The notes under the pieces are model-generated. The model ran no database searches. It had not been told where the DNA came from and was given only the letters and a program-made list of their open reading frames with translations. A stretch of 30,804 nucleotides of DNA from a virus: the IMG/VR virus record IMGVR_UViG_3300025127_000153, positions 1 to 30,804 of that record. One strand, 5' to 3'. Below, piece after piece: positions 10,841-30,762 of the stretch. The position numbers and the translations under genes are program-made. Within the stretch, counting starts at the first letter, position 1. Every line of letters starts with the position of its first letter.

Positions 10841-11095
10841 ATGGAAGATCAAGAAGAAAAAGAGGGCATCGAATGGGGTGAAATCTTTGGTCACGCTGTC
10901 CGATTTATGATTCTTTGCTGGTCGCTTGCAATGATGACTCTTGGATACATGGATAAGATTCGCAATGATGGAGCGTTTTTAGCTGGCTTGACCAGTGGGG
11001 TCCTCGGTTCATACGGTATCTCCGTTAACAAAAAGAAACCCACAAACGCTGCTAAAATAGTAGATAACAAGGACACTAAGGTAGGAATCCAATGA
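10841..11095 (+). CDS. Small membrane protein, 84 aa (holin-like size and topology)
   Basis: An acidic N-terminus (MEDQEEKEGIEWGEIFG) is followed by a transmembrane segment at about 19-37 (FMILCWSLAMMTLGY), a short polar loop, a second glycine-rich hydrophobic segment at about 44-62 (GAFLAGLTSGVLGSYGI) and a Lys-rich tail. Two membrane spans in 84 residues, at the head of a cassette of exported proteins, is compatible with a holin, but no holin family is recognised and no endolysin is next to it. Its stop overlaps the next start (ATGA). Confidence 0.65.
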   Translation: MEDQEEKEGIEWGEIFGHAVRFMILCWSLAMMTLGYMDKIRNDGAFLAGLTSGVLGSYGISVNKKKPTNAAKIVDNKDTKVGIQ

Positions 11096-11607
11096 AAAAA
11101 CTACTTCCATTTTTATTTCTGGTATCTAGCCCTGTGCTCGCAGACATTAAGCAAGAATTTGTGACATCTGCCCAGATCACTGTAGATATGCCTTTCGTAA
11201 CTACTCAAAAAGTTGGTACAACATATTCTTTAAGCGGAAATAATATTACCCCATCTGTAACTGTAGGAGATACCACAACATCAGGAAAGATCGGTGGGAT
11301 CAATGTTGGCAGTCTCACCAATGGCGTTCCAGCTATGATTCAGACTGATACAACCGTGACTACGAGTGGATCGGCTTTTTCAAAAACCGAGTCGGTGACA
11401 ATGGGTGACGCTACACCATCTGCTGTAACTCCAAGTGCAGGAATCGCAGCATTGCCAGTATTAGGTGGAACGACAACAGTAGCTTCTGGTGGTACAGCAG
11501 GAAACCTTGCACTCACTTCGCTAAGTTCTGGCGTTCATACTTGCACCGCAGGTGGATCGGGTACATCTTGCATAGGATCTACTAAAGTTACTATTACGAT
11601 TGACTAG
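11092..11607 (+). CDS. Sec-exported Thr/Ser/Gly-rich protein, 171 aa (paralogue A)
   Basis: A clear signal peptide, MKKLLPFLFLVSSPVLA, with an Ala-x-Ala-type cleavage site after residue 17. The mature part is beta-rich and low in charge, with YSLSGNNI at about 46-53, IGGINVGSL and GSAFSKTESVTMG; two cysteines lie near the C-terminus. A diverged copy of this architecture is encoded by the next gene. Exported to the periplasm or outer envelope of the infected cell. Proteins of this style occur in cyanophages without known function; an envelope, adhesion or lysis role is inference. ATGA overlap with the membrane-protein gene. Confidence 0.7.
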   Translation: MKKLLPFLFLVSSPVLADIKQEFVTSAQITVDMPFVTTQKVGTTYSLSGNNITPSVTVGDTTTSGKIGGINVGSLTNGVPAMIQTDTTVTTSGSAFSKTESVTMGDATPSAVTPSAGIAALPVLGGTTTVASGGTAGNLALTSLSSGVHTCTAGGSGTSCIGSTKVTITID

Positions 11608-12031
11608 ACTTTGGCTGCTGGTTTTATTAACATTACCTATAAGAACACTTGCTGTTCCTGTAGTACCACAGTTTCGTACAGGTTCGAGTCAAACTTCAAG
11701 CACATCTGAGTCAATAATTAATGAAACGATCACGAGCCATCAATACAGGACAGGCTACAGCTACAGTGCGTCAGGACATAATATTGAGTCTGAAACAGGA
11801 TATATCAACCCTACTCCTACGACTACGGATCAACAAACAGTCGGGGGAGTAAATTTTAGTTGGACTTCACCAAACTTAGAAGCTATACCTCGCTGGTCAA
11901 TATCAAACGATGGAGCAGCCTTCTCTCTACAAGAAACGCTAATTACCCCAGGGCTAGATACGACAACAACCATAACTCGTCAAATAACTACAAGCACTAC
12001 AACAGAAACTACAACTACCTTTGGGCAATAG
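11600..12031 (+). CDS. Sec-exported Thr-rich protein, 143 aa, TTG start (paralogue B)
   Basis: A TTG at 11600, inside the end of the upstream gene, opens a frame with a good signal peptide (MTRLWLLVLLTLPIRTLA, cleavage after residue 18), which supports this unusual start; the nearest ATG would lose it. The mature part shares an ordered motif series with the upstream protein: YSYSASGHNI, VGGVNF, then GAAFSLQETLITPG, so the two are diverged paralogues. The C-terminus is a Thr-only-like tail (TTTTITRQITTSTTTETTTT). Its last 170 bases also carry the start of the next frame. Confidence 0.65.
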   Translation: MTRLWLLVLLTLPIRTLAVPVVPQFRTGSSQTSSTSESIINETITSHQYRTGYSYSASGHNIESETGYINPTPTTTDQQTVGGVNFSWTSPNLEAIPRWSISNDGAAFSLQETLITPGLDTTTTITRQITTSTTTETTTTFGQ

Positions 12032-12606
12032 CTTTACTTCTCTGTCCTGTCAAAACCCTTGCAAACACTACCGTTGCGTCACCTTCCAGCAATGCCCAAG
12101 GTGTCGTTAATAATAATGCCACCATGATTACACCATCTGCTATGCCGTCTTACAAAATGAGTCAGGGCATAGTATGTGCTTCACCTAGCCTTACAATTAC
12201 ACCCTATTTAACAGATAGTTGGTCTTTCGCACGACCCAAAGAATATATTACGAGGACACCTATTTATGACGAAGATACTGGTGAGATCAAATACTATTCA
12301 GAAATACCTAGATTTGAAAAAGATAATTTTAATCTAAATTATGGAATATCTGCTCAGTTTAATATTCCGCTAGGCAAGTCACCAGCCCTTTGCCATGAAG
12401 CAACAGCAGTAAATATTGAAGCTCAGAGGCTACTTATAAAGAAAACTAAAATGGAGATTAGTCTCTATCGTTTAGAAATGTGTGCAAAACAAGCAAATTT
12501 GGGAGCTAAATTTAAAGAGGGTACACCAAGTGCAGTTACTTGTGAAGATATTATTGTTAACATTCCTCCCAATCAAGTTATCCCACATACTCACAAATTA
12601 GAGTAG
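11860..12606 (+). CDS. Exported protein, up to 248 aa; start uncertain (deep overlap or AUA start)
   Basis: The mature region (from about residue 69: NTTVASPSSNAQGVVNNN) is a convincing protein, with a conserved-looking core (SPSLTITPYLTDSWSFARP; LNYGISAQFNIPLG), a helical segment (EAQRLLIKKTKMEISLYRLE) and several cysteines. A signal-peptide core, YLWAIALLLCPVKTLA, precedes it, but no ATG, GTG or TTG lies close by. Options seen: TTG at 11860, with GGGGAG 11 bases upstream, giving a 53-residue basic N-terminal extension read out of frame through the upstream gene; or an AUA at 12028 overlapping the upstream TAG. Function unknown; periplasmic or outer-membrane location likely. Confidence 0.6.
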   Translation: MDFTKLRSYTSLVNIKRWSSLLSTRNANYPRARYDNNHNSSNNYKHYNRNYNYLWAIALLLCPVKTLANTTVASPSSNAQGVVNNNATMITPSAMPSYKMSQGIVCASPSLTITPYLTDSWSFARPKEYITRTPIYDEDTGEIKYYSEIPRFEKDNFNLNYGISAQFNIPLGKSPALCHEATAVNIEAQRLLIKKTKMEISLYRLEMCAKQANLGAKFKEGTPSAVTCEDIIVNIPPNQVIPHTHKLE

Positions 12607-13922: not shown

Positions 13923-16760
13923 TTAGACGATAGTAAGAGTTTCTCCTGATCCTACAGTAACAGTAACACCACTGTTAATTGTAATAGGGCCAGCAGCCAT
14001 AGCGTTCTTGCCGTTAGTTATAGTATAGTTCGTAGTTACAGTTTGGTCATTCTCGTAGAATACTTCATCAGAACCGCCACCAGTAGCACCAGCCGATATG
14101 CCTGTTAAGTTCGATCCATCAACTGCTGGAAGTGTTGAAGGAAATCTTGCATCAGGTATCGTTCCAGAAGAAAGGTTACTTGCGTTTAATGAGTTGATGA
14201 CAGATGAAGTAACGTAGCCAGCACCATTTGAAATCTGGTTGTTATTAGTTACGTTTGTTGCACCAGCAGCAATGCCATCTAATTTACTGTGATCTGCGTT
14301 TGTAAAATTATTGTCTGTTTGAGAAGCTACAGAAAAATCTAATGTACCGTCACCATCTTGATAGGTAACTGTGATACCTGATTCTGTGTTGCCAGAAACC
14401 ATACCACCAACAATATCCTGTACTTGTTCGTTGGTTAGTGTTGCAGTAATAAAGCCAGCACCATTTGTTAACTGGTTCGTATTGGTTACGTTAGTTGCAC
14501 CAGCAGCGATACCATTTAGTTTTGAGTGGTCTGCATCTGTAAACACGTTGCTATCACTAGCACTTTCAACTAAAGCTCTTATTTCGGAAGCAGTTTGGTC
14601 TGCGGTTGCACCTGATTCTATTCCGTCTAATTTGCTGTGATCTGCATTGGTAAAGTTATTATCAGTTTGCGAAGCTACAGAAAAATCTATCGTTCCATCA
14701 CCATCTTGGTACGTTACTGTTATGCCTGATTCTGTGTTACCAGAAACCATGCCACCGACAATATCCTGTACTTGCTCATTTGTTAAAGTGGCTGTTATAT
14801 ACCCTGCACCGTTTGTAAGCTGATTATTATTTGTGACGTTAGTTGCTGAAGCAGCTATGCCATTTAACTTAGACAATAATGCGTCAGTAAAAGCATTTGT
14901 ATTACTGTTAGCTTCGTAGGCTGTTTTTATTTCTGAATTACTTTGATCTGCGGTAGCTCCACTTTCTATACCGTCTAGTTTTGATCCATCACTAGCTACG
15001 TCACGACCATCAACTGTACCTGTTACTGTCATGTTGCCAGTTAAATCAAGCCCTGCTCCTACATCTAAATTTCCATAAATATCAACAGTTCCATCAGAAG
15101 CAATATTTAGTCTATCTCCTACTGAAGATGCTGTTCCTGTCCGAACTAAAAATCTGTCTCTAGAAATTCTAAGGTGCTGTGTAAAAGTACCACCTTTATT
15201 TACATTTTCATAATCTCCAATTTCTATATACTCATTAGCAAAACTATCACTATCTGAATCATCAGAAGTAGAAATTCTTAAATAGCCAGCATTACTTCCC
15301 CCTAACCATTCGATGTGTGCATCATCATTAGCAGCGTCACCAGCACCAAACTTAATTCCATCTCCTGTTGTTGGTAAAACAATTCCATCTGAAAAAGTAA
15401 TCTTGCCAGAACAAGTATGAGTTCCGTCTGTTCTTACAAAATTGCCTTGACTATAACCATCTAATGTGTCAGCGTCTAGCCCTGACCCTGCCCCATCTAC
15501 AGTTTTAATAAGTGTAAGGATTTCACTTGCTGTTTGGTCAGCAGTAGCTCCAGCTTCTATACCATCTAATTTACTGTGATCTGCGTTGGTGAAGTTTTGA
15601 TCTGTCTGTGATGCAACAGCGAAGTCAATCGTTCCATCACCGTCTTGATAAGTAACAGTAATACCAGATTCAGTATTACCAGAAACCATACCGCCTACTA
15701 TATCCTGGACTTGTTCATTAGTTAGGGTTGCGGTTATATACCCTGCTCCATTTGTTAGCTGATTATTGTTAGTTACATTTGTGGCTGATGCAGCAATTCC
15801 ATTCAATTTAGATAGAAGAGCATCAGTAAACACATTACTGTCGGAAGCACTGCCAACTAATGTTCTTATCTCTGCTGCTGTCTGATCTGCTGTCGCACCA
15901 CTCTCAATTCCATCAAGTTTTGTACCGTCAGAAGCTACGTCACGGCCATCAATCGTTCCATCGCAGGAAATATTACCAGCGACTTCAAGTCCTGTTCCGT
16001 TTATTAGCTTTAAATCTGTGCTTGTAAATCTTGCAGCAATATTATTTGAACCAGCTTTTGTGAGCATAAATTCGAGTATTCCATCTTCCGTTGCATTTGT
16101 AACATCACCCGCTTTTCCTGTGATCTTTGCATAAACTTGTTTATTATCCGCAGCATCTTCGCCTGAGAATTTTATTTGACCTAAATAATCCGCATCTGCT
16201 GGCGATGCACTAATTCTGTATAAATCTAATTCTGGTGCAGCAGCACTACCACCATCACTGGAAGATAGTGTTATGTTACCAGCAAAAGTTGAGTTACCAG
16301 TAGAAGCTATTTCTCCAAGAATTATATTCTCACCAGAGATAGTTGCTAGAATCTCTGTCCCTGTCATATCAGCAGTGGCATTTGCTTCAATGCCAGCTAA
16401 CTTATTAAAATTAGCAGCAGACATAGATCCAGCATTAACTAAACCAGCAGCCTGTAATTTCGATCCATCTATAGCTGCACTTCCGCTTATATCAGCATTT
16501 ACGATAGTTCCGTCAGCTATCTTGGCTGATGTTACGACTCCATTATCAATAGTAAAAGTATCGCCACCATTACTGACAGTAATATCGCCCTTGTCTCCGT
16601 CATCAATACCTCCGCTACCTGATATTTCAGCAACAGATCCATTATCTTTCTTTGTAAATAGCTTACCTGTATCAGTTCTTATCGCTATCTCACCGACAAC
16701 TAGATCACTAGCCCCTGGATCGCTACCAGAACCTCTTTTGAGTTTAATTTCATTAGCCAT
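13923..16760 (-). CDS. Large repetitive tail fibre / adhesin, 945 aa
   Basis: The N-terminus (MANEIKLKRGSGSDPGASDL, then VGEIAIRTDTGKLFTKKDNG) is the attachment-type domain common in cyanophage fibres. The shaft is built of repeats: a roughly 116-residue unit containing TLTNEQVQDIVGGMVSGNTE and ITVTYQDGDGTIDF occurs three times, plus a shorter GIESGATADQ / GIAAGATNVT motif many times. The last 50 residues (NYTITNGKNA, GVTVTVGSGETLTIV) recur in the fibre gene at 20895. It should form a trimeric beta-rich fibre contacting the host surface. An AGGAGG ribosome-binding site lies nine bases before the start. The repeats make it prone to recombination and assembly error. Confidence 0.85.
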   Translation of the reverse strand: MANEIKLKRGSGSDPGASDLVVGEIAIRTDTGKLFTKKDNGSVAEISGSGGIDDGDKGDITVSNGGDTFTIDNGVVTSAKIADGTIVNADISGSAAIDGSKLQAAGLVNAGSMSAANFNKLAGIEANATADMTGTEILATISGENIILGEIASTGNSTFAGNITLSSSDGGSAAAPELDLYRISASPADADYLGQIKFSGEDAADNKQVYAKITGKAGDVTNATEDGILEFMLTKAGSNNIAARFTSTDLKLINGTGLEVAGNISCDGTIDGRDVASDGTKLDGIESGATADQTAAEIRTLVGSASDSNVFTDALLSKLNGIAASATNVTNNNQLTNGAGYITATLTNEQVQDIVGGMVSGNTESGITVTYQDGDGTIDFAVASQTDQNFTNADHSKLDGIEAGATADQTASEILTLIKTVDGAGSGLDADTLDGYSQGNFVRTDGTHTCSGKITFSDGIVLPTTGDGIKFGAGDAANDDAHIEWLGGSNAGYLRISTSDDSDSDSFANEYIEIGDYENVNKGGTFTQHLRISRDRFLVRTGTASSVGDRLNIASDGTVDIYGNLDVGAGLDLTGNMTVTGTVDGRDVASDGSKLDGIESGATADQSNSEIKTAYEANSNTNAFTDALLSKLNGIAASATNVTNNNQLTNGAGYITATLTNEQVQDIVGGMVSGNTESGITVTYQDGDGTIDFSVASQTDNNFTNADHSKLDGIESGATADQTASEIRALVESASDSNVFTDADHSKLNGIAAGATNVTNTNQLTNGAGFITATLTNEQVQDIVGGMVSGNTESGITVTYQDGDGTLDFSVASQTDNNFTNADHSKLDGIAAGATNVTNNNQISNGAGYVTSSVINSLNASNLSSGTIPDARFPSTLPAVDGSNLTGISAGATGGGSDEVFYENDQTVTTNYTITNGKNAMAAGPITINSGVTVTVGSGETLTIV

Positions 16761-16769
16761 GAGCTTTTA

Positions 16770-16775
16770 CCTCCT
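16770..16775 (-). promoter_or_regulatory. Consensus Shine-Dalgarno AGGAGG for the large fibre gene
   Basis: Minus-strand AGGAGG at 16775-16770, nine bases before ATG 16760. It stands out because most genes in the window, especially those right after promoters, lack a recognisable ribosome-binding site. It fixes this start. Confidence 0.8.
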
Positions 16776-16779
16776 AGCT

Positions 16780-18228
16780 CTAGTATGAACCACCGTCTAT
16801 GTTAAAGCTAGATGCACTTTCATCTTCTAAAAATGTAACTAGATCAGATAATGCAACCTGTTTCATCGTTCCATTATCATTTAGTACTACACGATCTGCT
16901 GCTGCCAAAGTCGTAGAAGTTGCAGATGTAGCACCATCTAGCAGATTCAATTCCGAGGTCGTTACTGTTGCTCCATCGAGGATTCCGACTTCAGTTGAAG
17001 TTAGGGCAGCTAAAGCAGCAGAAGCACCAGACTGCATACCTGATAAGTTATCGAGGTCAGCGTCATACGCTTGAACATTGGTTCCGATTGTTAAGCCAAG
17101 ACTAGCTCTAGCAGTAGCACCTGACTCAGCAACAAAATTAGATCCGTCACCTACGATAAATACTCCGTTACTTGGAGTAAGACCAGCTACATCTGAAAGC
17201 TGTGCATCGAAAGCCTGTACATCTGAGCCTATGGCTAGACCAAGATTTGTCCTCGCTTGGGAGGCACTTGTTCCACCTGTACCCCCGTCTCCGACTGCTA
17301 AAGTTCCTGTAATAGAACTAGCATCTAGCTTTACAGCAATTTCAGAAGATTCAATAACAAGTCCACCATTAGCTTTTAGATCAACAGATAAAGTATTACC
17401 AGATTTATCTAGACCATCTCCTGCTGTTACCTGGCCAGCACCAGAAAACTGAGCGATTGTAAGGTTATTCGTTCCAACAACAGCAGATCCCTTATCAGAA
17501 GTACAAACAAAACCGTTATCTGCGTTTACTGTTCCTTTTTCTACAAAGGTAAAGAATCCTGCTGCATCTGCTCCTGCTGCTAGATCATCTGCTCTAGCTG
17601 GACTAGACCCGACTACGTAAATACCGTTCTCCGAAGCTGTAGACTGGTTTTTGACCAATACTCGATCATTAGTTGCAAGAGTCACACCATCCAGTGTGTC
17701 GCCATTGTTTAAAGCTGTTGATATTGTGATATTTGCTGTAGTAGCTGCTGCACAACTGTCTTTTACATCTAAACCTTGTGCAGTTGCCTCAACAAATGAC
17801 TTGGTCGCTGCATCTTGAGCATTTACAGGGTCAGCAAGGTTTGTAATTGTCTGACTATTTAATGAAACTGAACCAGTTGGTGCAGCCATTTGATCTAATC
17901 TACTTGTTCTTACTTGTGTATCGAAATCTGAGACCTTGGAAGCAGTCAGCGAAGGCACGTCTGCTGCTACCATTGCCCTAAATGTTGCAGCACCATTACT
18001 ACCATTTGGTGCAGCTAAAAATGTATTTTGTGTTCTACTCGTAAATAAATCAGCATAACTACCAGATCCACCGATAGCTTCGATAGTTGTTGCAGAACCT
18101 CCTGCTCCACCCGTTCCAATACCGATAAAGAGTTTCTTGCTGCCTTCTGCAAAAGCTAACTCAGCATTTGCAAGACTTGTTGGTGCTGAAGATCCTGTGG
18201 ATCTTTTTATGCGTACTGTGTTAGCCAT
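16780..18228 (-). CDS. Tail fibre protein, 482 aa
   Basis: Starts MANTVRIKRSTGSSAPTSLA with AELAFAEGSKKLFIGIG, the same kind of N-terminal attachment module as the 945-aa fibre. Residues about 100-240 contain phage-tail collagen/fibre-like segments (TITNLADPVNAQDAATKSFV and DTLDGVTLATNDRVLVKNQ), which are familiar from long tail fibres of myo- and siphophages. The C-terminal half has repeats of the ARTNLGLAIGSDVQAFDAQL / ARASLGLTIGTNVQAYDADL type and ends NIDGGSY. A host-range structural protein. Confidence 0.8.
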   Translation of the reverse strand: MANTVRIKRSTGSSAPTSLANAELAFAEGSKKLFIGIGTGGAGGSATTIEAIGGSGSYADLFTSRTQNTFLAAPNGSNGAATFRAMVAADVPSLTASKVSDFDTQVRTSRLDQMAAPTGSVSLNSQTITNLADPVNAQDAATKSFVEATAQGLDVKDSCAAATTANITISTALNNGDTLDGVTLATNDRVLVKNQSTASENGIYVVGSSPARADDLAAGADAAGFFTFVEKGTVNADNGFVCTSDKGSAVVGTNNLTIAQFSGAGQVTAGDGLDKSGNTLSVDLKANGGLVIESSEIAVKLDASSITGTLAVGDGGTGGTSASQARTNLGLAIGSDVQAFDAQLSDVAGLTPSNGVFIVGDGSNFVAESGATARASLGLTIGTNVQAYDADLDNLSGMQSGASAALAALTSTEVGILDGATVTTSELNLLDGATSATSTTLAAADRVVLNDNGTMKQVALSDLVTFLEDESASSFNIDGGSY

Positions 18229-26932: not shown

Positions 26933-27294
26933 TATGCTGGTTCAAATACTTGTCTAAAAGTTGCTTGAATAGTGGCTCTATTTTTAAATGGTATTGATTT
27001 ATTCCATGATTCACATACAAACTTGAACTTAGTGGAATCTTCACCAGGTAAGTAGTCAACAGGTAAATCAAAGCTATCACTGTCATTTGCACGGGCATCA
27101 AGGAAGGCTTCTATAACGTCTGCTTCTGCTTCTGATACGTCATAAGTAAAGTTAAAAATCTTTGGATTCTGATGTTGTGCGAGGCCAAATAATAATCTGT
27201 GTTCGTAGCCATCAGCAAATCGAACAGTGCGAGTTTTTGGTGCGGATTTCTTTTGTTGGCCGTAAGTAGGTTTTATTGAGGGAAACGTAGCCAT
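26932..27294 (-). CDS. M: Minor tail protein M homologue, 120 aa
   Basis: TYGQQKKSAPKTRTVRFADG, YEHRLLFGLAQHQNPKIFNF and EAEADVIEAFLDAR followed by FKFVCESWNKSIPF are the standard elements of the gpM (phage minor tail) family, and the length (lambda 109 aa) fits. It sits directly after the tape measure and before L, as in lambda, with one-base overlaps at both sides. Tail tip component. Confidence 0.87.
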   Translation of the reverse strand: MATFPSIKPTYGQQKKSAPKTRTVRFADGYEHRLLFGLAQHQNPKIFNFTYDVSEAEADVIEAFLDARANDSDSFDLPVDYLPGEDSTKFKFVCESWNKSIPFKNRATIQATFRQVFEPA

Positions 27295-29732
27295 TATGCA
27301 AGTAATCCTCCTGGTCTTTTCTGCTGTATTAATTCAGATTGTACCGCAGCCGAAATAAGACGACCAAGTTCTCTACCTTCTTCTTCATTTCCTTCAACTG
27401 AAGAACCAGAAGCATCTACATTTACGACTATATTAGTTGTTCCACCAAGATCACTATTTGGAGTTATTCTGCCTCCCGTATTTGGTGTAAACATTTCTGG
27501 GCCACGTTCTCCAACCATATAACTCTTACCAGTGCTAACAGGACCACCATTAGCTCTGAAGAATCTAGAACCTGGGAATATAGAACCAAGAAGAGAATTT
27601 ACACCAAAGCTAATTAGTTGTCTGGATATTTCACCAAATACACTACGAGCCACATCTCCTAAAGTCTTTGTTCCTTGGATCGCACCATCAATAGCACTTA
27701 CTATTCCGTTTTCTATAGCTGATCCAATACCTTCATATAGTGATTTAAGTTTCATTTCTTGCTTTGTTAGTTGATCGTTTATTCTTGTTCTTGCAGCATC
27801 AATGTTCGCTATTGCTTTTTTGACTAACAGTATTTCTTCCTCAACACTCTTAGCAGCTCTAAGCTCTTCACCTAACTGATTTTGTATTCTTACTTTTTCT
27901 AGTTCAAACTGTAATCTTCTGGCTGTTTCTTCATCTCCGAAGTTTATAGCTCTAGTTATGTTTGACTGTATCTGTGACTCTTGTGTTATCAAATTAATTC
28001 TTCTTTGTAGCTTTTCATTTCTTGATTGTTCTTTTTCGTCAATTCCAGCTAATTGAGTGTCAATCTTAAATAAGTCTATTGCTAATTTTTCATCAAATTT
28101 AGCTTCTATATCTGCTCTAAGACCTTTATTTCTTACTCCTTTTAACTCGTCTCGCCTTGCAGCATTGTTTTGAACATCTATAATTCTTTTTTGTAAAAGT
28201 AAATTCTTTCTCTGCCCTGCAAATGTTTGAGCTTCTTGTCCAAATACTTTCTGTTGCTCAATACTTAATGTTGTACGAAGAACATCTGCTGCTAAATCAA
28301 CCTCTCTTCTCAACTTTGCTACCCTACCTATTGATTCCTGTATTCGTTTATTAAATCTCTCAAAGAAATTATCAACAACAGGTAAGTCTGGTATCAAACC
28401 TCTTAGAGTGGATATTCCTCTATTAAAGGTTTTAAATATCTCAGCAACTAGGAAGGATATAGTTCCTATTCCTGTTAGTAGCGGTCCACCAACAATGGAT
28501 AAGGTTGTGCCAGCACTGTTAACAAGTTCGCTGAATCCTGCATTTAGAAGCTGTACCTGTCTGTTCACGTCTCTGGTTACGTCAGCAGACGCACCTGTTC
28601 TCTTCTCTACTTCCCTAGCTAATATTGCTCTTGCCTCATCCTGTCTGCCTAGTTCTTTTAATAAATCAACTTGTGCTCTTAGTTCTCCGCTAATTATGAT
28701 GCTTTGTTCTTCTAGTTTCTCAAAACTTATCTGATCTATTGCATCGCCTAGAGCATTTGCTCTTCTTACAAGTTGCTCAAGTTGAGTACCTATCGCACTA
28801 CCAAATATCTGTGCACCGAACTCTTCCCCTGGCTTTGCTCCAAGACTACCGAGAACACTACCAGCAACAGATCCAACACCTCCACCAAAAAGTAAAGGGA
28901 AACCTGCACCGAGTAATCTACCTTGTCTCTGTTTTGCTCTCTGTCTATCTGATTGTTTTTCTTCCTGCTTTTGCTGTCTTAATCTTCTCTTACGTACATT
29001 GAACAGATCCATCTCCATGCGAAGTCTATGCTCTAGTTGATCGTTTATCTTTTGATCTGTTTTTAGTTCTTCTTTCTTTTCTTTTACTTTCTTCTTGGGT
29101 TTTGCTATACCAGCAGCAGTATCCGATGCTTTTTGTATATCTGCATTTATCTTCAACTGTTTACCTATGGCCTGACTTATATCTAAGAAGTCTTTTGAGT
29201 TAACCTCAGCCAGTTCCAGCATCCTGTTAAGGAGACCCATAGCCTCTCTACCAGCAAGCATAGTTTTTGGAAATGCCTCTATTTCTTTCAGTCTGGCTTT
29301 TACGTTTGCACCAGTAGCACCTGGATTCAACGCTTTTTTATCACCACTTGCCATTGCAAAAGCAACAGCTTCCATTCGTATCTTTTTAAAGTTACCTGCA
29401 AGTAAAGCAGTTGCCTTATTTTGTCTTTCGGCTGCACTATTGGCTGCGTCAAATGCTGCTCTTACCTGAGAAAGTTGATCTCTTACTTTTCCTATTGATC
29501 TTCCAAAACCATCGGTTCTAAAAGGGTTAAATAATTTTGCAGCTATTTCATTACCTTTTTCTATCTCTTTTCTTAGCTGCTCCATTCTCTTTTGAGCAGC
29601 AGAAGTCTTTACTCTTACAGGTTTTTTACTTAATCTATCTACAGTTTTTTCTAACTGAGCTATCTTTTTTAAAGAGTCTTTTAACTCCTTATCTATCGTT
29701 CTTATTCGTATATTTAGATTCTTCTCTGCCAT
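27294..29732 (-). CDS. Tape measure protein, gpH-like, 812 aa
   Basis: Long helical protein. The N-terminal half is coiled coil (EKNLNIRIRTIDKELKDSLK, KKIAQLEKTVDRLSKKP). Glycine-rich hydrophobic segments occur at about 270-300 (LLGAGFPLLFGGGVGSVAGS) and about 400-430 (LSIVGGPLLTGIGTISFLVA). More coiled coil runs at 470-680. The C-terminus has the tape-measure ending GGPVSTGKSYMVGERGPEMF. Its length sets tail length; at about 0.15 nm per residue, 812 aa predicts a tail near 120 nm. It sits just after G/GT and before M, in lambda order. Confidence 0.93.
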   Translation of the reverse strand: MAEKNLNIRIRTIDKELKDSLKKIAQLEKTVDRLSKKPVRVKTSAAQKRMEQLRKEIEKGNEIAAKLFNPFRTDGFGRSIGKVRDQLSQVRAAFDAANSAAERQNKATALLAGNFKKIRMEAVAFAMASGDKKALNPGATGANVKARLKEIEAFPKTMLAGREAMGLLNRMLELAEVNSKDFLDISQAIGKQLKINADIQKASDTAAGIAKPKKKVKEKKEELKTDQKINDQLEHRLRMEMDLFNVRKRRLRQQKQEEKQSDRQRAKQRQGRLLGAGFPLLFGGGVGSVAGSVLGSLGAKPGEEFGAQIFGSAIGTQLEQLVRRANALGDAIDQISFEKLEEQSIIISGELRAQVDLLKELGRQDEARAILAREVEKRTGASADVTRDVNRQVQLLNAGFSELVNSAGTTLSIVGGPLLTGIGTISFLVAEIFKTFNRGISTLRGLIPDLPVVDNFFERFNKRIQESIGRVAKLRREVDLAADVLRTTLSIEQQKVFGQEAQTFAGQRKNLLLQKRIIDVQNNAARRDELKGVRNKGLRADIEAKFDEKLAIDLFKIDTQLAGIDEKEQSRNEKLQRRINLITQESQIQSNITRAINFGDEETARRLQFELEKVRIQNQLGEELRAAKSVEEEILLVKKAIANIDAARTRINDQLTKQEMKLKSLYEGIGSAIENGIVSAIDGAIQGTKTLGDVARSVFGEISRQLISFGVNSLLGSIFPGSRFFRANGGPVSTGKSYMVGERGPEMFTPNTGGRITPNSDLGGTTNIVVNVDASGSSVEGNEEEGRELGRLISAAVQSELIQQKRPGGLLA

Positions 29733-29764: not shown

Positions 29765-29956
29765 CTACCGTGATTTGGGTATAACGCTCCTTCTTTGTGT
29801 TCTATCTTGTGCTTTTTCTTGTTCTTCGTTACGTAACTTGTAAAAGGCAGCCCAACCTACCATTTCTTCAACAGTTAATTTACTGCACAAATCCCGTACA
29901 GTCATTTTTAGTTCGTTAGCTAAAGAGTATATAAACTGCCAATCAGGATTAGCTTT
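29765..29956 (-). CDS. Tail chaperone GT extension (T part), read by +1 frameshift
   Basis: Fused to the end of G in the +1 frame: KANPDWQFIYSLANELKMTV... 63 residues, ending TAG at 29767-29765. It matches the T-type domain of tail chaperones (NPDW-aromatic-LANEL; TVEEMVGWAAFYKLRNEEQ). In this frame a TGA lies immediately before the first codon (29959-29957), and G stops with TAA at 29951-29949. The ribosome must therefore shift at the A-AAA-GC run (29957-29952): Lys AAA can re-pair one base forward, continuing with GCT. The product would be about 179 aa (117 + 62). Start codon inside T exists (an internal ATG), so separate translation cannot be excluded. Confidence 0.75.
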   Translation of the reverse strand, partial: KANPDWQFIYSLANELKMTVRDLCSKLTVEEMVGWAAFYKLRNEEQEKAQDRTQRRSVIPKSR

Positions 29957-30305
29957 TCAATTCGGCCTTAGCCTCATCTACCTCCTTTTCTGCTCCTGCC
30001 TGTAACATTTCAAGCTGTATTTCCTGTAAAACGCTGGCTGCTACTTCTCTACGTAAAGAAGCCTTGTCACCATCGGCAAAAATACGTTTTCCTCCTTTAT
30101 CTAATGCTTTTTCAATCATTAGCTGTAAGGCAAAGTCATTATTATCTTCTGATCCACTCTTTTTCTGTATCATTTCACGTTCAGCTATTGTAAGTGGATG
30201 CCAGTAGACAGTAAGCACTACTTCTCCTTCAGAATTGTTGATATCATATTTATAGAGTTGGCTTACTCCAAAATTATTCTTAAGAAGATCAATAGCTCTG
30301 GTCAT
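29949..30305 (-). CDS. Tail assembly chaperone, gpG-like, 118 aa
   Basis: Sequence VYWHPLTIAEREMIQKKSG, DFALQLMIEKALDKGGKRI and DKASLRREVAASVLQEIQLE is typical of the G chaperones that coat the tape measure before tail tube polymerisation. It lies directly upstream of the tape measure. The last codons read TTG AAA AGC TAA, and the frame one base forward continues into a T-type domain, giving the GT fusion described separately. The ratio of G to GT normally governs tail assembly. Confidence 0.9.
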   Translation of the reverse strand: MTRAIDLLKNNFGVSQLYKYDINNSEGEVVLTVYWHPLTIAEREMIQKKSGSEDNNDFALQLMIEKALDKGGKRIFADGDKASLRREVAASVLQEIQLEMLQAGAEKEVDEAKAELKS

Positions 30306-30333: not shown

Positions 30334-30762
30334 CTACGAATTAGCAGAAAAAGCACAAGATACTATACCTAAAAAGTGTGATCTATCTTCAACCTCAATA
30401 GGTACAGGTCCACTTATTTCACCAACTCTAGGCTTACAACTAAAAGTATCTGTGTAATCAGAAGCATTTATGGATGTCAGACCAGATATTACAGATTCTC
30501 CTACAGCAGATAGCACAGAAGTACCTTTATTTTTAGGTACATAAATATTACATTGGACCGCACCAGAATAGTATGTGGCAGCAGCTCCGTGTGCCTGTAC
30601 TGTTGCTTGGTTAAAAGTTATTGATATAGCAACATAGGTTATTGTTTTACCTGACAAAGTTTGTGGGATGTTGTCATAAATAATTTTTACTGTAGGGTCA
30701 GAATCATTTACTGAGTCTGTTATAGCTTTTTCAAAAGCTGCTCTTGCGTTTACTAAAGTCAT
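30334..30762 (-). CDS. Tail terminator-like (gpU type) protein, 142 aa
   Basis: VNARAAFEKAITDSVNDSDP, an early helix, then alternating beta-strands (ITYVAISITFNQATVQAHGA, YYSGAVQCNIYVPKNKGTS) and VEDRSHFLGIVSCAFSANS match the compact alpha/beta fold of tail terminator/completion proteins that precede the major tail or G genes. Position upstream of G fits. A clear major tail tube gene is not seen in this window. ATGA overlap with the partial gene at the right edge. Confidence 0.65.
   Translation of the reverse strand: MTLVNARAAFEKAITDSVNDSDPTVKIIYDNIPQTLSGKTITYVAISITFNQATVQAHGAAATYYSGAVQCNIYVPKNKGTSVLSAVGESVISGLTSINASDYTDTFSCKPRVGEISGPVPIEVEDRSHFLGIVSCAFSANS

Follow-up and report, generated by a model that had tools for sequence, protein, structure and literature searches.

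A probable +1 ribosomal frameshift joining the tail assembly chaperone halves G and T in a phage lineage

The viral record IMGVR_UViG_3300025127_000153 (positions 1 to 30,804, the 30,804-nucleotide stretch hereafter called the window) carries a small gene, G, for a tail assembly chaperone, and just at its end a second conserved coding stretch, T, in another reading frame. How do ribosomes that have translated G come to translate T? Through a comparative analysis of sequences we found that G and T can be joined only by a +1 (or -2) shift, and we propose that they very probably are joined by a programmed +1 slip of peptidyl-tRNA-Lys from one AAA to the overlapping AAA, which would give a gpGT fusion. 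Related G-T loci were gathered by scans of viral contigs and GenBank phages; 441 loci were fetched, and 320 G-T junctions were left after duplicate removal. T lies in the +1 frame in three clades: that of the window (172 distinct sequences, including the single-cell virus AG-345-A17) and two that are more diverged, the second (n = 75) and the third (n = 41).

The G-T junction and its conservation

On the minus strand the genes run in the order tail terminator, G, T, tape measure (Table 1). The last codons of G read GAA TTG AAA AGC TAA and T lies one base forward, as the initial annotation had it, with coordinates and frame arithmetic that proved right. After the TGA of the +1 frame (29959-29957), AAA GCT AAT CCT GAT TGG and the codons that follow encode KANPDWQFIYSLANEL and so on to a terminal SR and the stop; the frame is open from 29956, and its translation from there to 29765 is KANPDWQFIYSLANELKMTVRDLCSKLTVEEMVGWAAFYKLRNEEQEKAQDRTQRRSVIPKSR. 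T proper was placed correctly at the outset, but it comprises 62 residues counted from Ala (29765-29953) rather than 63. The -1 frame at the end of G runs through 11 sense codons into TAG, and no -1-type X_XXY_YYZ heptamer leads into T, which is in the +1 frame. The early exclusion of a -1 shift holds for hundreds of relatives; in the window's clade T is in the +1 frame in 172 of 172 sequences.

Table 1. Features of the tail module and of the shift region
Feature	Coordinates	Strand	Remarks
Tail terminator gene	30334..30762	-	phrog_179, E = 2.7e-9; upstream of G
Gene G, tail assembly chaperone	29949..30305	-	118 residues, 0 frame; open reading frame, stop TAA 29951-29949
Shine-Dalgarno-like stretch AAGGAGGT	29980..29987	-	AAGGAGG core ends 23 nucleotides before the slip codon
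Putative mini-hairpin GGC-TAAG-GCC	29964..29973	-	ends 6 nucleotides before the slip codon
+1-frame TGA directly 5' of slip codon (TTG|A)	29957..29959	-	confines the switch to AAA or later
Shift site A-AAA-GC	29952..29957	-	0 frame AAA (29957-29955), AGC; +1 frame AAA (29956-29954), GCT
T domain, +1 frame	29765..29956	-	first codon AAA 29956-29954, then GCT AAT CCT GAT TGG; stop TAG 29767-29765
Tape measure gene	27294..29732	-	phrog_1538 and phrog_5062; directly after T

The other-frame position of T was found in 80 of the 80 relatives first collected and in all 172, 75 and 41 sequences of the three clades, in agreement with the earlier view of a conserved fusion; an open frame due to chance is thereby excluded. 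The switch had been assigned to the A-AAA-GC run because a TGA stands directly before it, and that site is held across hundreds of relatives. Throughout the window's clade the slip codon is AAA (172/172); it is preceded by TTG (102 sequences) or TTA (70), which always yields a +1-frame TGA or TAA, and followed by AGC in 163 sequences, AGT in 5, AGG in 3 and AGA in 1, so that the 0-frame consensus is TTR_AAA_AGN. All 75 members of the second clade read ATG AAA AGC. The third clade has AAA followed by AGC (35 sequences), AGT (4) or AGA (2), the codon before AAA is unconstrained (ATG, CTG, TCC, AGC, GCC and others), and the +1-frame stop before AAA is absent in part of it. The core common to all three is AAA_AG, with AGC in nearly all sequences. 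Synonymous change at the AAA codon is suppressed (z of -4.9 and -4.8), and among the 378 Lys-Ser dicodons that this clade has in its tape measure genes only 10 are AAA AGC.

Because nucleotide diversity in T is distributed as 0.218/0.144/0.366 over +1-frame codon positions 1, 2 and 3, T is under coding constraint in that frame. T does not open with a conserved start codon: a start-like codon first appears at index 31 in 63 sequences, at index 6 in another 52 and at other places in the remainder, within or behind conserved residues. We also observed a second patch of suppressed synonymous change at T codons 33-36 (GGT TGG GCT GCY; 29780-29860, minus strand), where GGT and GCT are strongly preferred and codon 35 has a z of -5.6.

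The order of the genes, the fold of G and the conserved other-frame T mark G and T as a lambda-type pair of tail assembly chaperone components. G matches the tail assembly chaperone family phrog_344 (E = 3.6e-5). A PDB sequence search with G gave no significant match, and the AlphaFold model of G (predicted local distance difference test score, pLDDT, 73.9) finds as its best PDB fold match the HK97 tail assembly chaperone 2OB9 (E = 0.002, template-modelling score 0.54), followed by YqbN. T matches the tail protein family phrog_337 (E = 4.5e-4; 1.8e-7 for the best relative). In the tail protein family phrog_14766, a T-like part occupies residues 120-182 of 224, behind an N-terminus of the size of G. 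A -1 direction is common in G/GT pairs but does not define them, since +1 and -2 members are known (PMC5009743). Like lambda, the window has a small G reading frame, an overlapping T without its own start, the terminator-G-T-tape measure order and a presumed minor fusion product; it differs in shifting +1 at AAA_AGC where lambda shifts -1 at GGGAAAG, and the two T domains are only distantly alike. In lambda, gpG attaches to the tape measure protein, the T part brings in the tail tube protein, and the ratio of G to GT matters; by analogy the proteins encoded here may play the same roles.

Nucleotide constraint upstream of the site

The 30 nucleotides upstream of the shift site are conserved at the nucleotide level in the window's clade, a feature that the initial annotation had missed. 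Tested one by one (z scores), codons -10, -9, -6, -5, -3 and 0 show a strong deficit of synonymous change. Codon -3 has the lowest synonymous change of the 87 codons tested (z of -7.2); it is GCC in 172 of 172 sequences, compared with 4.4% of the Ala codons in these phages' tape measure genes. The third base of codon -6 is likewise G in every one of the 172, even where the residue changes (GAG, CAG, AAG), against an expectation of 17% for Glu.

These constraints coincide with two putative elements. One is a mini-hairpin of the form GGC-NAAR-GCC, whose 3-bp stem is invariant (172/172) while its 4-nucleotide loop varies. Hairpins that reform beside the E site have been found to favour +1 shifting on 70S ribosomes and to reduce shifting in the -1 direction (PMC6321510), and the mini-hairpin is a natural candidate for such a +1 stimulator. 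The other is the Shine-Dalgarno-like stretch AAGGAGGT with its variants AGAGGAGT and AAGGGGGT, for which the predicted pairing with the anti-Shine-Dalgarno sequence averages about -10 kcal/mol over the 172 sequences. It is kept despite residue changes (AAG GAG GTN, AGA GGA GTT, AAG GGG GTN) and perhaps acts as a co-stimulator. As for elements 3' of the site, a downstream pseudoknot or stem-loop was considered and rejected, as folding energies lay near those of shuffled sequences in the three clades (mean z about 0 to -1.3).

A forward slip on AAA and its alternatives

We suggest that most ribosomes would terminate at the end of G and release gpG. In a minority, with peptidyl-tRNA-Lys on AAA and AGC awaiting in the A site, the tRNA would move one base forward and re-pair fully with the overlapping AAA; a GCN (Ala) codon would be read next, and the product would be the gpGT fusion ..ELK-ANPDW... 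In the window's clade, the GGC/GCC hairpin reforming behind the E site, perhaps together with the Shine-Dalgarno-like stretch, may help to push the ribosome forward. The frames, the conservation of the site and the coding constraint on T can be read directly from the alignments; that the switch takes place on the ribosome, and with what efficiency, we infer from them.

The same frame would be reached by a -2 slip, a device on which phage Mu relies, as do other viruses (PMC5009743), and the product would then be ELKK-ANPDW, with one residue more. In the window's clade such a slip would set tRNA-Lys against UGA or UAA, as anticipated when the locus was first described as offering no good -2 alternative, and in the third clade against unrelated codons; tRNA-Ser, for its part, is unable to pair with AAA, whereas the +1 step permits perfect re-pairing. 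We therefore regard a -2 slip as very unlikely. A +1 slip might instead occur one codon earlier, with tRNA-Leu moving from UUR to URA and AAA then being decoded in the +1 frame. UUR is indeed invariant in the window's clade, and this route would yield the same peptide, LKAN, so that mass spectrometry alone could not separate the two. The re-pairing would be poor, however, and what all three clades share is AAA_AG, not the codon before it, which is AUG in the second and variable in the third. Because the preceding codon varies freely in the third clade, we place the slip on AAA itself, and we give the earlier codon slightly less credence than a -2 event.

It is also necessary to ask whether T is joined to G at all. 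T lies close behind the stop of G and might be a separate gene with its own or coupled initiation, an explanation that we rate lower again; it sits poorly with the lack of a conserved ATG, GTG or TTG and with the T-like domain behind a G-sized N-terminus in phrog_14766, and it leaves the invariant AAA_AGC unexplained. Least credible of all, and close to negligible, is an error of sequencing or assembly at the A run, or slippage there during transcription. Such runs are error prone, and one A more or less had been named at the outset as a possible refutation. Hundreds of independent metagenome contigs and a single-cell amplified genome nevertheless agree, which rules out an assembly error, and the run is just 4 A, far below the lengths known for polymerase slippage. 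The other refutation then envisaged, homologues with in-frame or -1 junctions, has a divided outcome: no in-frame G-T fusion was found among the 441 related loci, and the window's clade is uniform, but -1 homologues do exist, as separate groups (those of KBS-S-2A, S-H1 and HTVC202P). A direct pattern scan for in-frame or five-A variants returned no member of the window's clade among the matches listed, which carries no weight either way, and a search for close relatives found no prophage in bacterial genomes.

Several observations weigh against a slip of this kind, or against the stimulators that we propose for it. The mini-hairpin is not found in two of the three +1 clades, and its stem, being just 3 bp and invariant, does not permit a covariation test. 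Shine-Dalgarno sequences act at spacings of about 3 nucleotides for +1 and 8-14 for -1 shifting, and at 23 nucleotides the stretch found here lies beyond them. The BFVD entry D6PII1, a predicted viral protein of 179 residues with 57% identity over the G part, is as long as a G-T fusion would be, and it is possible that it represents an in-frame member or an indel in the record. Finally, stalling at a rare A-site codon fails as a general cause: in the window's clade, where AGC supplies 5.6% of the Ser codons of tape measure genes, its rarity may help, but in the second clade it is a common Ser codon (33.7%).

Relatives with T in the -1 frame, and known systems

Cyanophage KBS-S-2A and its relatives, S-H1 and the Pelagibacter phages HTVC202P and HTVC026P carry T in the -1 frame, and their G genes close with A_AAA_AAC, a site for an ordinary -1 slip, or with A_AAA_AAA; MED4-184 and S-2L are of the -1 type too, without the A_AAA_AAC heptamer. 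The G proteins of KBS-like phages and of the second clade are about 70% identical, and T is joined at the same protein position (KKLKQEL and KALKIEL, respectively). T of the window's clade is homologous to the -1-frame T of the KBS-like phages (hhalign profile comparison, probability 98.7). The KBS-S-2A group shares homologous halves joined at one position and differs in the direction and the site of the shift. The initial annotation had spoken of cyanophage relatives; this is true of the KBS-S-2A group, but it does not establish a cyanobacterium as the host of the window's virus, which appears to infect water-dwelling bacteria.

On a tree of G, built with the junction residues and the longest outgroups left out, the direction label needs three changes, and the supported branches force three. 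A tree constrained to a single -1 clade was not rejected (approximately unbiased test, p = 0.068), which makes the count of switches a tentative one. The shift direction has changed at least once, and the tree suggests that it probably did so three times; +1 shifting either evolved repeatedly on the same letters or is old, with repeated losses. A broader proposal, which we find possible but lean slightly against, is that this is a natural bacterial +1 shift driven by an E-site-adjacent hairpin, possibly with a distant Shine-Dalgarno-like stretch, in a family that flipped several times between -1 (A_AAA_AAC) and +1 (AAA_AGC) and, in three lineages, came to +1 on one and the same six-letter site.

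Two further observations concern the -1 relatives. The T region between G and the tape measure gene is unannotated in the GenBank records of KBS-S-2A, S-2L, MED4-184, HTVC202P and HTVC026P, and only that of S-H1 has a small hypothetical coding sequence there. HTVC202P-like G genes (locus L445 6587-6915; HTVC202P/026P) end in long A runs (GTA AAA AAA AAC TAA; AAA AAA AAA TAG), at which transcript slippage might occur in addition to -1 shifting.

The site had at first been taken for a distinct recoding signal, which overstates the case, as +1 shifts in tail chaperone genes have been reported before. Tailed phages use -1, -2 or +1 shifts in this gene pair, and a +1 shift is very likely in the tail chaperone of haloarchaeal HSTV-2 (PMC5009743); the tail chaperone of the cluster F1 mycobacteriophage Karhdo is annotated with one (PMC10793310); and the predictor PRFect was trained on many forward sites, tail chaperone sites among them (PMC10885494), its forward motif 'four' being one that would cover AAA_A. 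All of these resemble the present case in the gene concerned and differ in the phage group. Within the open-access literature, we found no paper on this site, its upstream elements, a -1/+1 switch among close cousins or this phage group, nor any on the host of the single-cell record AG-345-A17.

Among better-known +1 systems, Escherichia coli prfB (CUU_UGA) is alike in that a P-site tRNA moves one base forward, and would be alike too in the push from an upstream element; its Shine-Dalgarno sequence lies at 3 nucleotides, whereas here the comparable stretch lies at 23 and the hairpin occupies the near position. The yeast elements Ty1 (CUU_AGG_C) and Ty3 (GCG_AGU_U) also shift +1 with AGN in the A site, which here is AGC, AGT, AGG or AGA; the present system differs in its bacterial ribosome, in having AAA in the P site and in that AGC is not rare in one of its three clades. 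Bacteria and phages offer few natural +1 sites, and a general motif has not been agreed upon. With hundreds of natural variants, and opposite-direction relatives as a control, the letters that set the direction become directly testable. The silent upstream constraint offers a candidate natural 5' hairpin that would push ribosomes forward, an effect so far seen mainly in designed constructs. In practical terms, most of the GenBank records checked carry no annotation for the T half, and annotation of aquatic phages thus misses it.

Elsewhere in the window, there are three consecutive open reading frames at 11092-12606 (plus strand), of which at least two are Ser/Thr-rich and have signal-peptide-like starts; one of the three matches DUF6322 (E = 4.6e-28), and they lie beside the tail fibre genes, on the opposite strand. 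At 13923-18228 (minus strand) there are two long tail-fibre-like open reading frames (945 and 482 residues) with internal repeats such as LDGIESGATADQT.
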